Part shown: positions 5,373 through 34,608 of the stretch, piece by piece | Numbering within the stretch: the stretch's first letter is position 1 | Layout: every line of letters begins with the position of its first letter | Source of the DNA: a virus | DNA length: 48,175 nt | Direction: 5' to 3' (one strand) | IMG/VR virus record: IMGVR_UViG_3300047483_000164 | Location: 1 to 48,175 of that record | Made by a program: the position numbers and the translations under genes | The notes under the pieces: model-generated | Seen by the model: the letters and a program-made list of their open reading frames with translations, nothing else | Database searches by the model: none | Told to the model about the DNA's origin: nothing

Positions 5373-6440
5373 ATGAGAAAGATGGCAACCATTAGAAAGA
5401 TTGATGCACTGCGACCCATTGAAGGTGCAGATGCAATTGAGTGCGCCATTGTAGGTGGATGGACAGTGGTAGTCAAGAAGGGCGAATACTCAGCAGGTGA
5501 TCTTGCAGTGTATTGCGAAATTGATAGCTTCATTCCCACAGCCGTTGCTCCGTTCTTGACCAAGCCCGGCCACTATGCAAAGACTTTTGAAGGTGTTGAA
5601 GGCGAACGTTTGCGAACTATGAAGTTGCGTGGTCAATTGAGCCAAGGCCTGTTAATTCCAATATCTGTGGCCTTAGAGAAATTTGAAGATAGCAAGTTTG
5701 ATGAAGGGCAGGAATTGGGTGAATTCTTCTTCCCAGGTAATGATGTGTCTGACCTGCTTGGTATTGTCAAGTACGAAGCACCTGTGCCTGCAGAGTTGGC
5801 TGGTGAAGTTAAGGGTATGTTCCCATCAGTTATTCCCAAGACTGATCAAGAACGTGTTCAAAACTTAAAGGTCGAACTTGCAGAATGGCTGGTCGATGGC
5901 TCACATTGGGAAGTTACCGAAAAGCTAGAAGGCTCGTCAATGACAGTGTACATGCGTGATGGTGAAGTAGGTGTGTGTTCGCGTAACCTTGACCTCAAGC
6001 CTAACGCAGATAACTCACTATGGCGTGCCGCAAACAAGTACAACCTGCCTGCTAAGTTGATTGGCATCGGTCGTAACATTGCTATCCAAGGTGAAATTGT
6101 AGGCAACGGCATTCAAGGCAACATTTACCAAATGCGTGATCAAGATTTCCTTGTGTACGACATTTACGACATTGATGCAGGCTGTTACTTCACTCCAGCT
6201 GAACGTAAGGCATTTGTTGCAGAACATGGCCTGAATCACTGTCCAGTACTTGCATACTCTGCCAACCTAACTGATACACTTGGCCTCACTAACATGGATC
6301 AAGTGTTAAAGTTTGCCGAAGGCAAGAGTGTAATGGGCATGATTGGTTGCGAACGCGAAGGCGTGGTGTTTAAGTGTCATGAACGGCCTGTTTCGTTTAA
6401 GGCCATCTCTAACCGATATCTCCTGAAACACGGAGGTTAA
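5373..6440 (+). CDS. RNA ligase, DRB0094/Rnl5 type
   Basis: 355 residues. The nucleotidyltransferase motif I is VTEKLEGSS with the adenylated Lys at about 184. Further motifs are RNL in VCSRNLDLK, GEIVG near 230, and EGVVFK followed by SFKAIS (motifs IV and V). The N-terminal about 110 residues (RKIDALRPIEGADAIECAIV) form the OB-like extension of this family. Known members seal nicks with a 3'-OH RNA strand. The phage also encodes a polynucleotide kinase (35358-35825) and many tRNAs, which fits RNA repair. Ribosome site AAGGA; strong terminator downstream. Confidence 0.88.
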   Translation: MRKMATIRKIDALRPIEGADAIECAIVGGWTVVVKKGEYSAGDLAVYCEIDSFIPTAVAPFLTKPGHYAKTFEGVEGERLRTMKLRGQLSQGLLIPISVALEKFEDSKFDEGQELGEFFFPGNDVSDLLGIVKYEAPVPAELAGEVKGMFPSVIPKTDQERVQNLKVELAEWLVDGSHWEVTEKLEGSSMTVYMRDGEVGVCSRNLDLKPNADNSLWRAANKYNLPAKLIGIGRNIAIQGEIVGNGIQGNIYQMRDQDFLVYDIYDIDAGCYFTPAERKAFVAEHGLNHCPVLAYSANLTDTLGLTNMDQVLKFAEGKSVMGMIGCEREGVVFKCHERPVSFKAISNRYLLKHGG

Positions 6441-29315: not shown

Positions 29316-29344
29316 TTGACAAGCTGGCCAAATAAGTATATAAT
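29316..29344 (+). promoter_or_regulatory. Sigma70-type promoter of the tmRNA
   Basis: TTGACA, 17-bp spacer, TATAAT; predicted start near 29351, right at the 5' side of the tmRNA acceptor piece. Confidence 0.88.
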
Positions 29345-29350
29345 ATAAGT

Positions 29351-29660
29351 TATTGCTGTATGAAGCGATGAGAAATAAGTTCAAGACGCGGGGGCAGTGC
29401 CCGCCAGGTCCACCAAAAGAAAATTAGACACGGTGTACAACGTGCCTTAAGAGTGTGAACTCGGGACCAGGACATAGAGCCTGAATTTTAGTTTTCTTTT
29501 GATGGGCCTGACACAGGATCGATTGGGCAAAGAGTAACAAAGTGGACAGCTCGGCAAAGCAGAAGCCGTAGGATTGGGGTTTCCCGGTCGTAGAAGCAAA
29601 ACCTTTAAATGCAAATGATAACGCATTTTTGATGGCCGCCTAATTTAGGCCCATCTGAGT
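29351..29660 (+). ncRNA. ssrA: Permuted two-piece tmRNA
   Basis: The gene is circularly permuted. The acceptor piece comes first and ends at 29415: a T stem GCGGG/CCCGC (29388-29404) with the unusual loop GGCAGTG, acceptor strand CAGGTCC and ACCA. An 88-nt intervening segment (29416-29503) is bounded by complementary AAAAGAAAA and TTTTCTTTT. The coding piece starts at 29504 with GGGCCTG, which pairs with CAGGTCC and places G-U at the third pair, the alanine identity signal. The tag reading frame GCA ... TAA (29611-29643) encodes ANDNAFLMAA, followed by a GCCTAA/TTAGGC helix 5 over the stop. It rescues stalled ribosomes and tags products for proteolysis. Exact 5' and 3' ends are estimated. Confidence 0.9.
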
Positions 29661-30215: not shown

Positions 30216-30244
30216 TTGACTATTAGATTGTTTTGTCTTACAAT
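30216..30244 (+). promoter_or_regulatory. Sigma70-type promoter of the suppressor tRNA
   Basis: TTGACT, 17-bp spacer, TACAAT; the predicted start near 30251 is 3 nt before the tRNA 5' end. Confidence 0.8.
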
Positions 30245-30253
30245 AATTACATA

Positions 30254-30328
30254 GCGATAGAAGCTGAATGGCATAGCAAGAGCCTCTAAAACTCAAGATT
30301 GCGGGTTCGAGTCCCGTCTATCGCACCA
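30254..30328 (+). tRNA. tRNA-Sup(CUA), amber suppressor
   Basis: Perfect 7-bp acceptor (GCGATAG/CTATCGC), A73 and encoded CCA. D stem GCTG/TAGC with GG in the loop, and a T arm GCGGG-TTCGAGT-CCCGT. The anticodon loop is C-U-CUA-A-A with the anticodon at 30286-30288. The anticodon stem has three pairs (GAG/CTC) flanked by A27-A43 and C31-A39 mismatches, and position 8 is A. The variable region is short, so it is not a Tyr, Leu or Ser body. Which amino acid it carries cannot be told. It is isolated from the main tRNA cluster, with its own promoter. Confidence 0.78.
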
Positions 30329-30533
30329 AGGCAGCGGTATCTTCTCTAAGTTGAGTCCAGTATGAGTTGCACGGTAAGCTAGATAAATCCGTGGGCAAGC
30401 AAGAGTACCAAAATGTAACTTAGTGGCAGTCGGGAACAGACCGGCACTACTAAATAGTTTTGTAGCATTAGCTACAACCAACTGACTTTAAGATTACTAT
30501 GTGTTTAGTCAGTACACAGTAAAAGGAAGAAAA
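30329..30533 (+). other. Non-coding stretch with hairpins and a late element
   Basis: No gene seen. TAGTG ... CACTA around CGG/CCGG (30421-30451), TTGTAGC-ATTA-GCTACAA (30460-30477) and ACTGACT ... AGTCAGT (30480-30513) are inverted repeats. CTAAATA at 30450-30456 probably starts the mRNA for the gene at 30534, whose leader would begin with the second hairpin. Confidence 0.5.
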
Positions 30534-31385
30534 ATGATGTACAATCAAAAACTCGTTGCGAGTCTAAAAGCAAACGGCAAGATCCTCCGTGAATTCAAGG
30601 ACACAGTCTATATTCCATTTGGTAGCGAATATAGCTTTCTAATCAAAAACCTCAACACAACTCGAGCACTTGTAAACATCTTCATTGATGGCGACAATGT
30701 CATCGAAGGTGGCTTGGTTCTTAACGCGGGACAAGAAGTTGACCTTGAGCGTTATGTCAAAAATGGTAATCTCAATGCCGGTAACCGATTCAAGTTCATT
30801 GAACGTACAAATGCCATTGAAGATGGTCCTCGTGGTGCCAAACTTGAAGATGGTTTAGTTCGTATTGAGTTCCAATTTGAAAAGCCATACGTTCCACCTG
30901 TTAGTCGCGGCTGGATTACTGCAAGTGGTGGCACCAATCAAAATAGCATCTACCCAGCCAGCTTCAATGTCAATGGTACATTGCGATCAGTTGACTTTAG
31001 CCAAAACGGACAAGTGATGGCACAAGCCGCATCCGCCGCAGTAGACAAGTACTGTGCTGATAATGGCATTGTGAACAAGAGTGAAGTTCACGATGGCATG
31101 GCTACGATGGATTGGATGGATATGAACCAAACAGTTAATGACGTAGGCATTACTGTTCCTGGTAGCAAGAGTACACAAAAGTTCCAAACAACTTTTATGG
31201 GTGCAATGGAAGCTGAAAAGCACACCATCGTACTAAAGTTGCTTGGCGAAACACCTGACAACCGACCAGTATTGAAACCAGTAAATGTTAAGATGAAACC
31301 AAAGTGTGTGACATGCGGTAAACAGAACAAAGCTAACGCTAAGTTTTGCACCGAATGTGGCACGGCATTGGAAATCTTTGCATAA
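30534..31385 (+). CDS. Zinc-ribbon protein, 283 aa
   Basis: Start at 30534 (AAGGAAG upstream). The N-terminal 110 residues are beta-rich: MMYNQKLVASLKANGKILRE, then VYIPFGSEYSFLIKNL. The C-terminus is a zinc ribbon CVTCGKQNKANAKFCTECG. The N-terminal part looks like a conserved domain of jumbo and T4-like phages whose role is unknown. The last codons overlap the next late promoter. Confidence 0.75.
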   Translation: MMYNQKLVASLKANGKILREFKDTVYIPFGSEYSFLIKNLNTTRALVNIFIDGDNVIEGGLVLNAGQEVDLERYVKNGNLNAGNRFKFIERTNAIEDGPRGAKLEDGLVRIEFQFEKPYVPPVSRGWITASGGTNQNSIYPASFNVNGTLRSVDFSQNGQVMAQAASAAVDKYCADNGIVNKSEVHDGMATMDWMDMNQTVNDVGITVPGSKSTQKFQTTFMGAMEAEKHTIVLKLLGETPDNRPVLKPVNVKMKPKCVTCGKQNKANAKFCTECGTALEIFA

Positions 31386-31388
31386 ATA
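31382..31388 (+). promoter_or_regulatory. T4-type late promoter ATAAATA
   Basis: Contains the stop codon of the preceding gene; 4 nt (ACGC) then ATG 31393. Confidence 0.6.
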
Positions 31389-31392
31389 ACGC

Positions 31393-31560
31393 ATGAAAAG
31401 CATATATCACGGAACAGCCGCTGCCAATGCCAAACTAAACGGCAAGACAACGCATTTATTAAGCTGTAAGTGCTGTATGCTTTTTAACCCCAAACACAAA
31501 GAACGTGTAAAAGAAGCCGAACAAGAAATAAAGGATTTTAAAAATGACAAAATAGATTGA
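31393..31560 (+). CDS. Small Cys-rich protein, 55 aa
   Basis: Starts MKSIYHGTAAANAKLNGKTT; then LLSCKCCMLFNPKHKERV with three closely spaced Cys (possible half zinc site), and an acidic helix to the end. Leaderless start 4 nt after a late element. Its 3' end overlaps the start of the amber-containing gene by 17 bases. Confidence 0.6.
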   Translation: MKSIYHGTAAANAKLNGKTTHLLSCKCCMLFNPKHKERVKEAEQEIKDFKNDKID

Positions 31561-32140
31561 GTACGCATGCAAGGACGTAGTGTTCCACTTTAACAAAGCA
31601 CACTTAACGGACCAGACCATTCCCATGTGGGTCTTAAAATTTCATGGCGAAACGTTATATGTCAATCATGTGGATTGTACTGTACCTTGGAGCACCAAGG
31701 AGACTAGTAATAACCCGCACACCAAAGGTAGTATCAAGGTAAAGGATTGTTTGCTAACAATCAATGACGCCAACGAAGCTACAGTTTCCAAACTTACCAT
31801 CATCGATAAAGTCCGTCTGCGAAATCAGAAGTTGGGCATCACACGAATCATCGTAAGTGAAAACAATTGGGGTGCAAAGAAACTCAAGGACGCATTAAAA
31901 GAGAACAACATCAAGCACGGGCCTATCAAAAGCATCGGCGGCGCATGTAGCACTACATTTTACATGGCTGATATTTTTGATAAGGAAGATGTAGCGATGT
32001 TGCACTTATTGCTAAGTGATACTGATATTCGAATCCTCAAACCAAATGAGGGCTACTACAAGTATTACGACGACCCAAAGTTTCAAGGAATCTCCGACAT
32101 CGATTTGGATGCGGAGGGATGGGATGATGACGATGAGTGA
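31544..32140 (+). CDS. Hypothetical protein with in-frame amber codon 4
   Basis: From ATG 31544 (AAGGA 9 nt upstream) the frame reads M-T-K-amber-I-E-Y-A-C-K-D-V-V-F-H-F and then stays open to 32140 (about 198 residues with the amber read). The amber is TAG at 31553-31555. Without readthrough the only later starts are weak (GTG 31580, no ribosome site). The body (KAHLTDQTIPMWVLKFHGET) ends in a very acidic tail (DAEGWDDDDE). I recognise no domain. The phage's own CUA tRNA lies about 1.2 kb upstream, so suppressed translation is a real possibility; a simple nonsense mutation is the alternative. Confidence 0.65.
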
Positions 32141-33170
32141 CTATAAGTACAATATGAATAATTTCTTCTGCCCAGCGCCTTGGCGCTCAATGTTTTATCA
32201 TGTTAACAAGGTATCGGTTTGTTGTATCAGCTCTAAGCAGTTTGATATGTCTCCTACAGAATTTCAAAACAGCGAGTACTTGAAAAATCTAAGACAAAAG
32301 TTTTTAGATGGTGAATACGACGATACATGTTCTGCTTGCAAAAAATTAGAAGATGCTGGCTTACAAAGCATAAGAGAACATATGGTGGCATTATACGGCG
32401 ATACTGCTACACCCGACAACATTGAAACTGAGTTAGATTACATGGAATTACGTACCAGCAATCTTTGCAACTTTCAGTGTAAAATGTGTAATGCACAAAA
32501 CAGCTCATTGATAGCCGGATCAGTTACCAACATTAGCGAGGACAACTTTCAAACAATTCTGAAGTTAGCCGAAAACTTAAAACATTTGACGCTAACTGGT
32601 GGAGAGCCAATGCTTATCAAGCACTACTATGAATTGTTAGATCACTTGGTTAGTCTGGACAAATCAGACCTGACTTTAAAAATTTATACCAACGCTAGTG
32701 TTTATAATCCAGTGTTTGTTGAGAAGATTTTAAAATTCAACACGTATCTGCATCTCAGTATCGACGCAGTAGGTAACACCGCAGAAAATTTAAGAGTAGG
32801 AACCAATTGGAAGGTAGTCGATGAGAATATTAACAAGTTCCTTCAGCTGCCTTTGAAAGTAATCTTTCATACCACAATCACAGGCTCGGCTCTAGAAGAT
32901 ATACATTCATTGGCCCAATACTTCGTTGACATTTTTAAAAAATATCCAAATTGTAAATTTTTAGCACACACAGTTAGGGCTCCTGTGCATATGGCAGTTG
33001 CACATATTCCTAAAAATAAAAGATTGGCTACGATAGATAGTATTGATCAAGCGTTGAATATTTTAACAGACCCGATGTTTACTCAGCTACGGGCACAACT
33101 CATCTCATGTAAACGAGTCATTGTTTCTACTATGCAAACGCCCAAAACAACGTTAAACGATACGCAATAG
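32124..33170 (+). CDS. Radical SAM enzyme
   Basis: 348 residues from ATG 32124, with GGAGG 6 nt upstream, overlapping the previous gene. CNFQCKMC near residue 115 is the CxxxCxxC [4Fe-4S] motif; LTLTGGEPML is the SAM-binding GGE motif. Extra Cys (FFCPAPW, CCISSK, CSAC) at the N-terminus may bind another cluster, as in SPASM/twitch enzymes. The substrate is unknown. Ends in TAG. Confidence 0.88.
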   Translation: MMTMSDYKYNMNNFFCPAPWRSMFYHVNKVSVCCISSKQFDMSPTEFQNSEYLKNLRQKFLDGEYDDTCSACKKLEDAGLQSIREHMVALYGDTATPDNIETELDYMELRTSNLCNFQCKMCNAQNSSLIAGSVTNISEDNFQTILKLAENLKHLTLTGGEPMLIKHYYELLDHLVSLDKSDLTLKIYTNASVYNPVFVEKILKFNTYLHLSIDAVGNTAENLRVGTNWKVVDENINKFLQLPLKVIFHTTITGSALEDIHSLAQYFVDIFKKYPNCKFLAHTVRAPVHMAVAHIPKNKRLATIDSIDQALNILTDPMFTQLRAQLISCKRVIVSTMQTPKTTLNDTQ

Positions 33171-33243: not shown

Positions 33244-33804
33244 ATGAAGAAAATTATCTTAGCATCTATTTTGGCAGCAGCCGCTGGTTTGGCAAGCGCC
33301 CAAACATCTGTTACACTCAGCGGCTCTGTCGTTGATTCAGATGTAAATGGTCAACAAACTCACCGCCAAGGTCTAACAGTTCGTACCGGACTTGCTTATG
33401 GCTTGACAGGTGACGTAGGTGTTATCAATAGTCAAAATGACTCAACCAATGCAACATCAGTTCGTCAAGAAGTTGGTGTATCAGGTACAGTGTTTGCAGC
33501 CGGTCCCTTGAGCGCAACAGTACGTGGTGGTATTGGTCAAAAGGCAGTGTCTGGTTCTAGCGCAACTGCCTACTACTCAATTGAGCCAGGTATCAGCTAC
33601 AAGGTCACTGATGCATTGACTGCTCGTGTAGCGTATCGTTTCCGTGATGCATTTTCGTCAAGTGTTGCTGACCGCAGTGACACGACCCGAGTTGGTGTTT
33701 CTTATGCATTGACAAAGAAGGACACTATTGGTGTAGGTTATGATGTCGTCAAGAAAGATGGAGCAGAAAAAGCAACATCACTTAGCTACACACGTTCATT
33801 CTAA
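33244..33804 (+). CDS. Porin-like outer-membrane beta-barrel protein
   Basis: 186 residues. The first 20 residues are a clear signal peptide (MKKIILASILAAAAGLASA, cut before QTSVTLSG). The mature part alternates polar and hydrophobic residues in strands and ends in Phe (LSYTRSF), the Bam recognition signal of outer-membrane barrels. The style of signal and first strand resembles Burkholderiales porins, but at about 166 residues it would form a small 8-10 strand barrel. AAGGAAA ribosome site, terminator downstream: a stand-alone gene. A phage-encoded surface protein could block other phages or change permeability. Confidence 0.82.
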   Translation: MKKIILASILAAAAGLASAQTSVTLSGSVVDSDVNGQQTHRQGLTVRTGLAYGLTGDVGVINSQNDSTNATSVRQEVGVSGTVFAAGPLSATVRGGIGQKAVSGSSATAYYSIEPGISYKVTDALTARVAYRFRDAFSSSVADRSDTTRVGVSYALTKKDTIGVGYDVVKKDGAEKATSLSYTRSF

Positions 33805-34224: not shown

Positions 34225-34264
34225 AAGTCTATATGGCTAAGAACCATATAGACTTTCTGCTTTA
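34225..34264 (+). terminator. Terminator
   Basis: AGTCTATATGG-CTAAGAA-CCATATAGACT, perfect 11-bp stem followed by TTCTGCTTT. Confidence 0.7.
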
Positions 34265-34268
34265 ATGT

Positions 34269-34277
34269 TGCTATAAT
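34269..34277 (+). promoter_or_regulatory. Extended -10 promoter
   Basis: TGC-TATAAT, 52 nt before the ATG at 34330. Confidence 0.55.
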
Positions 34278-34329
34278 CAATATACCACCACAGCATTGAT
34301 GCAAGGTGTATTATACAAGGAAACTTAAA

Positions 34330-34608
34330 ATGTTGAAGAAATTTGATGAAACTACCAAGCAGTACAAACTGTTCCAAGCTCTCGTATTGAACGGTGAGAC
34401 ATTGAGCGAAGCCGCAATTGCCAAGCGTTTTGGTATTGCTAACCCAACAGCTACAATCTCCCAGATTCGTCAGCGTGGTTACGCAGTTTATGCCAAGCAA
34501 CGTGTTGCTGGTAACGGTGTCAAGGTTACTGAATACCAACATGGTCAAGCAAGCCGCAAGATGGTTGCTTTGGCATACAAGGCCCAGAGTCTGGGTATTG
34601 CAATCTAA
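34330..34608 (+). CDS. Winged-helix DNA-binding protein, 92 aa
   Basis: AAGGAAA ribosome site. KYKLFQALVLNGETLSEAAIAKRFG then ATISQIRQRGYAVYAKQRV reads as a compact winged helix: helix-turn-helix followed by a beta wing. It is a plausible phage transcription regulator. It has its own promoter and is bounded by terminators on both sides. Confidence 0.75.
   Translation: MLKKFDETTKQYKLFQALVLNGETLSEAAIAKRFGIANPTATISQIRQRGYAVYAKQRVAGNGVKVTEYQHGQASRKMVALAYKAQSLGIAI

Follow-up and report, generated by a model that had tools for sequence, protein, structure and literature searches.

The 48,175-nucleotide stretch of viral DNA analysed here (IMG/VR record IMGVR_UViG_3300047483_000164, positions 1 to 48,175; hereafter the window) carries a transfer RNA (tRNA) gene with the anticodon CUA and, downstream of it, a gene whose fourth codon is the amber stop TAG. 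Comparison with relatives makes it very probable that the two belong together as key and lock: a stop placed a few codons after the start would block one phage gene under the host code, and this conserved gate would be opened by the phage suppressor tRNA.

As listed in Table 1, the ATG of this gene follows a ribosome-binding site, and after the TAG (31553-31555) the frame stays open for 194 codons up to a TGA at 32138-32140. The initial annotation, made from the sequence alone, had described the ATG with its ribosome site, the TAG at codon 4 and a readthrough frame of about 190 codons, and all of this agrees with the sequence. The cloverleaf with anticodon CUA that it had seen upstream was also found as a tRNA by ARAGORN, and the Rfam tRNA model RF00005 gave 58 bits at 30254-30325. 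The contigs L002 and L003, which are near-identical and stem from other assemblies, carry an identical TAG, and these independent assemblies ruled out a sequencing error, which the annotation had raised as a way in which its proposal could fail.

To search IMG/VR, we used the protein beginning after the TAG, so that the query could not favour stop-bearing loci. The first scan gave 31 relatives, nearly all of which showed an ATG, one to four codons, a TAG and then the conserved protein. In the second scan, using an alignment as query, TAG was found in 80/80 of the best 80 of 363 relatives, and neither TAA nor TGA stood at the gate position in any of these 80. A third scan was led by divergent members, and TAG was the nearest upstream in-frame stop in 77/80, with one of the 77 (L244) being an exception. 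Relatives had been expected to carry a sense codon at position 4; they keep TAG instead, which is stronger evidence for gating.

Sequences at least 95% identical were removed, leaving 97 lineages. TAG with an in-frame ATG within 12 codons was present in 91 of them, following the pattern ATG-(0-8 codons)-TAG-gene, and the gate stop was TAA or TGA in none of the 91. The leader peptides were diverse (MA, MS, MK, MTQQ, MTK, MSQA and others), indicating that the TAG is conserved and the codons ahead of it are not. Across all leader lengths the Shine-Dalgarno (SD) sequence kept a spacing of 7.3 ± 1.25 nucleotides (nt) to the ATG, while the distance to the codon after TAG was 17.8 ± 3.4 nt, and the ATG was in frame in all 85 lineages with an SD and a suitably spaced ATG. 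Differences between lineages at codon positions 1, 2 and 3 after the TAG were 0.22, 0.18 and 0.46, which indicates coding constraint and thus a translated sequence. Moreover, 31 lineages had no ATG, GTG or TTG from the TAG to the PMW motif, 14 codons into the conserved FHFNK region. The protein is conserved from the codon directly after the TAG, so the frame proposed from 31544 is real, and the alignment of homologs excluded that all of them start at or after 31580.

The same arrangement was observed in an isolate, Rhizobium phage RHph_I1_18, where ATG AGT GAG TTC ATG TAG precedes the conserved protein. The gene has no coding-sequence annotation there, and a tRNA annotated as tRNA-Pyl(cta) lies about a dozen nt downstream of it. 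No relatives of the gated protein were found in bacterial genomes.

We then examined the tRNA-CUA across the lineages. It was present in the fetched flanks of 71/97 lineages, on the same strand, at a median distance of 589 nt and usually upstream. A whole-contig pattern search gave a likely tRNA-CUA in about 21 of the remaining 26 lineages, a few of these being pattern or by-eye calls outside the ARAGORN listing, which brought the total to about 92/97; a reversed control pattern gave no matches in the main whole-contig search. Among 76 distinct tRNA-CUA sequences, A73 was found in 66 and the acceptor start was mostly GCG. For the amino acid carried, comparison with the nearest isotype gave a weak and mixed signal (Thr for 31 and Met for 21 of the 76). 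By eye, many of the 76 also seem to have C opposite A (C-A or A-C) at position 31-39 of the anticodon stem, a feature that could modulate suppression.

Six of the 97 lineages lacked the simple gate, and four of these carried the early TAG on an upstream gene of the PTH2 type of peptidyl-tRNA hydrolase. Sinorhizobium phage Phosso has such a gene, annotated as a peptidyl-tRNA hydrolase of 110 residues, with ATG AAG TAT TAG as a start further upstream; the annotated start cuts off the first conserved strand, and the gate lies ahead of that strand. tRNA-CUA genes are present in this phage, one of them about 4 kb upstream. Similar starts preceded the PTH2 gene of L218 (ATG AAA GAA TTG TAG) and the PTH2-like genes of L276 (ATG AAA TAG) and L244 (ATG TTG TAG). 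Pfam PF01981 scored 73-89 bits in Phosso, Agrobacterium phage Atu_ph07 and L218 against a cut-off of 23, and the proteins of L276 and L244 fell below the cut-off. Nine homologs of the PTH2 subfamily (L325, L326, L329-L333, L335 and L336) all showed ATG-(1-6 codons)-TAG; the short L325 and L333 contigs yielded no tRNA-CUA. L328 was left out of this count because of a frame break near its start, and L334 because of a further in-frame ATG after its TAG. In 8 of the 11 PTH2 sequences examined, the stretch from the stop to the conserved R.DL motif contained no ATG, GTG or TTG. Gating by the suppressor, suggested at first for a single gene, is thus supported by the relatives and is not limited to one gene family. 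We regard these exceptional lineages as the strongest support for it. The conserved-domain gene lies near the PTH2 gene in several phages.

The PTH2 gene of Atu_ph07 begins with ATG ATT GGC GAA CAC TTT TGA, and ARAGORN found a suppressor tRNA with the anticodon UCA in this phage, which has been reported to carry an opal suppressor (PMC6102473). In Atu_ph07, then, stop and suppressor match in kind. No gate was found at the PTH2 genes of XacN1, RAS14, SCTP-2, phiM12, Baka and two uncultured phages, among which the presence of a suppressor was examined in XacN1 only.

Two further observations touch these PTH2 loci. Positions 1-2640 of the Phosso locus (L322) hold a cysteinyl-tRNA synthetase gene before the tRNA-CUA and, two genes after it, a short class II synthetase-like gene (PF00587); it is conceivable that a phage enzyme charges the Phosso suppressor. 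At 4880-5120 of L328, the PTH2 frame is broken just after the early ATG and contains two TAG codons, possibly owing to a sequencing error or a recoding event.

The remaining two of the six exceptions carried an amber leader before a terminator-like structure. L257 has the leader ATG ATG TTA AAA GAG CAC TAG (L257:2373-2393) after the tRNA, then a hairpin with a T run (-18.6 kcal/mol, z -4.7) 3' of the leader, and then an ungated gene. L026 has ATG TTG TAG and, after it, a frame that crosses a comparable hairpin (-21.1 kcal/mol, z -5.2) and continues into the gene; L028/L029 have a leader as in L026 that ends inside the hairpin. The leaders of L257 and L026/L028, which are two lineages, look like amber-dependent attenuators in their sequence.

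Based on these patterns, the gate would work as follows. The gene would be unlocked when a phage suppressor tRNA, usually encoded close by, inserts an amino acid at the stop. We infer that this tRNA is aminoacylated and decodes the stop, and that its absence leaves little full-length protein. Messenger RNA and tRNA would both be needed, giving the AND logic and the wiring of a coherent feed-forward loop. The purpose, proposed less firmly than the gate itself, would be to delay the protein until the phage has built up its tRNA pool. Somewhat more probably than otherwise, the parts form a lock-and-key module. In it, phages would keep a dedicated suppressor tRNA chiefly to open a single small operon (for the conserved-domain protein, PTH2 or both), stop and anticodon would change in step (UAG/CUA, UGA/UCA), and where the gene itself has no such stop, an amber leader before a terminator would do the same job.

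Several points weigh against such a gate. All the support for it is evidence from sequence. Each scan sampled at most the best 80 relatives, with more distant ones lying outside the sample, and the opal pair comes from a single phage. No tRNA-CUA was found in five TAG-bearing lineages, three of which are fragments of 11-12 kb. XacN1 has two CUA tRNAs (L290, 36047-36205), and no gated homolog of either family was found in it; the anticodon loops of these two tRNAs resemble that of the window tRNA. L257 and L026/L028 stand outside the simple gate. In the window tRNA itself, pairing of the anticodon stem is weak and the fold of minimum energy differs from a cloverleaf (z -1.34); the gene was nonetheless accepted by both ARAGORN and Rfam.

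The conserved TAG could instead end a tiny leader open reading frame (ORF), with ribosomes restarting at the next codon, often ATT, or at a later GTG, and with the tRNA unrelated. The first codon after the TAG is ATT, ATC or ATA in 74/92 lineages, AUU is a rare bacterial start codon, and the window gene has a GTG at 31580. However, this codon may also be ACT, AAA, GTT, AAC, CAA and others, the GTG is not conserved, and a start there would remove conserved residues. Leader length varies from 0 to 8 codons, yet the ATG is in frame in every case counted above, which restarting would not need, and CUA is always found with TAG and UCA with TGA, with no mix of stops. We consider restarting improbable. 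It is slightly more improbable still that ATG-X-TAG acts as a minigene causing peptidyl-tRNA drop-off, so that the gate reports a shortage of peptidyl-tRNA hydrolase. Short ORFs of this shape, the lambda bar minigenes, are known to cause drop-off, and PTH2 is among the gated genes, but the matching suppressor tRNA and the TGA/UCA pair would be left unexplained and the main gated family is not PTH2. An initiator-type tRNA starting at UAG was also rejected: the window tRNA has 5' GCG and 3' CGC-A, so that position 1-72 is paired and not mismatched, and the ATG is the codon to which the ribosome site is spaced.

A genome-wide alternative code, in which TAG means an amino acid and the gated gene is merely one recoded gene, was assessed in ten contigs or genomes read whole or in large part. 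The suppressor tRNA is present, and TAG is seldom a terminator in some of these contigs (0.7-3%). On the other hand, TAG terminates 0-15% of genes across the ten, the fully read contigs already reach a coding density of 0.84-0.97 with the standard code, and no gene other than the gated one, which stands out across nine genomes, has a widely shared early in-frame TAG. The remaining early-TAG matches were isolated pairs, as for most TAA and TGA controls; a few of the pairs (such as G001/G002) were judged to be antisense or neighbouring-gene overlaps. Eighteen further SD-ATG-TAG candidates were dismissed as noise, being not widely conserved or resembling antisense or out-of-frame ORFs. A joined-segment comparison across all stops was dominated by antisense matches, and conserved readthrough across terminal TAGs was not found at the gene ends of these contigs. 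Thus a CUA suppressor tRNA of the kind that marks code 15 is present, while many genes with in-frame TAG are not. Genome-wide recoding was ruled out because only one early TAG is conserved and TAG still terminates genes, and we regard it as extremely unlikely. In the window, the four genes said to be the only ones ending in TAG do so (9765, 33170, 38966 and 40732); one further, doubtful minus-strand ORF (34237-34548) must be added. As a separate observation, a 482-kb phage contig (L030, ~5660-5700) has ATG AAA AAG TAG ATT AAC ATC CGA directly after its tRNA-CUA, possibly another gated gene.

A different question is what the gate is for. It is possible, though we hold this tentatively, that it is a readthrough sensor whose output is set by release-factor 1 or the suppression level (homeostasis) and not a timing switch. 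Because the second gated family is a peptidyl-tRNA hydrolase, and the window and several relatives have transfer-messenger RNA (tmRNA) genes in the vicinity of the gate, we also tentatively suggest a role for the gated proteins in translation under suppression, with their output tracking its level. There is precedent for such a sensor in prfB, the RF2 gene, which autoregulates at its own in-frame stop via frameshifting and release-factor level. Both place an early in-frame stop to sense the decoding machinery, whereas prfB works without a dedicated tRNA. Against the sensor, no function has been assigned to the domain that the main family conserves, and no link to release factors was found.

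Compared with known systems, the gate is closest in parts and different as a whole. In stop-codon recoded phages (code 15, crAss-like and others), suppressor tRNAs serve many genes, allowing those with in-frame TAG to be translated, and timing control has been proposed, by the account of Borges et al. 2022 cited in PMC10879173; proteomic proof of such recoding exists (PMC9523058). Many genes are recoded there, whereas here it is one gene or operon per phage, with a single early stop and TAG still a terminator elsewhere. An engineered feed-forward 'leak dampener' in E. coli likewise joins an early stop in the target to an inducible suppressor tRNA as an AND gate that removes leaky expression (PMC7969014); it is synthetic, whereas the present gate is natural, conserved and phage-borne. 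CUA or UCA suppressors are found among the many tRNAs of the jumbo phages XacN1 (PMC5852040), RsoM2USA (PMC8504454) and Atu_ph07 (PMC6102473). The XacN1 authors sought a suppressor target and found none (PMC5852040). No specific target was named by the authors of these jumbo-phage reports, whereas we propose PTH2 with its early TGA for Atu_ph07. Searches of the open-licence literature found no account of a lone, conserved phage gene gated by a stop, and there is a fair chance that the stop-codon gate deserves a class of its own.

Phage suppressor tRNAs in genomes that are not recoded had no known target, and the gated gene is such a target with strong comparative support. As the gate occurs in isolates that can be grown, the reason for these tRNAs is directly testable. 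Gene callers miss or shorten gated genes, leaving them unannotated in RHph_I1_18 and truncating PTH2 in Phosso and Atu_ph07. The gate also offers natural parts for tight expression control.

The gated protein matched no Pfam or PHROG family. Its N-terminal domain makes up the whole protein in some relatives and was modelled confidently by AlphaFold (predicted local distance difference test, pLDDT, 94), with no PDB fold match for the model. The sequence profile of the protein matches NEDD4L at E 4e-4. A WW domain was considered and rejected: PF00397 was weak in 11/34 members, with a best E of 0.025, the first member was below the cut-off, and there was no PDB fold match.

Table 1. Features of the gate and its surroundings in the window
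Feature	Position	Strand	Basis
Permuted tmRNA just upstream of the tRNA	29354..29643	+	Rfam RF04321, 103.5 bits
Sigma-70-like promoter of the tRNA, TTGACT-17-TACAAT (predicted)	30216..30244	+	Consensus scan, 10/12 matches
tRNA, anticodon CUA (amber-decoding suppressor; probable key of the gate)	30254..30328	+	ARAGORN; Rfam RF00005
Zinc-ribbon protein gene between tRNA and gated gene	30534..31385	+	Pfam PF13240; neighbour clustering
Ribosome-binding site AAAGGA	31530..31535	+	Sequence; 8 nt ahead of ATG
Gate ATG ACA AAA TAG	31544..31555	+	Sequence; ATG-(0-8 codons)-TAG conserved in 91/97 lineages
Amber-gated gene, 198 residues on readthrough of TAG; stop codon TGA	31544..32140	+	Sequence and relatives
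Conserved N-terminal domain, about 78 residues, FHFNK..PMW..YVNH..WSTKET..TKGSIK	31556..31789	+	Alignments; AlphaFold
Variable C-terminal alpha/beta domain, absent in short relatives	31793..32080	+	Alignment; AlphaFold model

ARAGORN listed 19 tRNA-like genes in the window, including the tRNA-CUA, whose label 'Pyl' reflects the anticodon only. The ordinary Rfam tRNA model fits this tRNA and its acceptor stem has 7 bp; no search for PylS was made. The claim that the tRNA has its own promoter agrees with the consensus scan, a match that by itself is no evidence of function.

The permuted tmRNA was missed by ARAGORN; a perfect sigma-70-like promoter match lies ahead of it at 29316-29344, and its tag is apparently ANDNAFLMAA. 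The zinc-ribbon gene was the commonest neighbour of the gated gene, at 36/109 loci in the neighbour clustering. Putative peroxiredoxin (AhpC-like) and AhpD-like genes were each seen near the gated gene at about 20 loci, including L009, where they lie 3' of it, and L250. Directly 3' of the gated gene in the window, 32130-33167 encodes a Radical SAM domain protein (phrog_14086, E 1.6e-20). It is followed at 33244-33804 by a small protein with no PHROG match, which has a signal-peptide-like start and is apparently an outer-membrane beta-barrel or porin-like protein.
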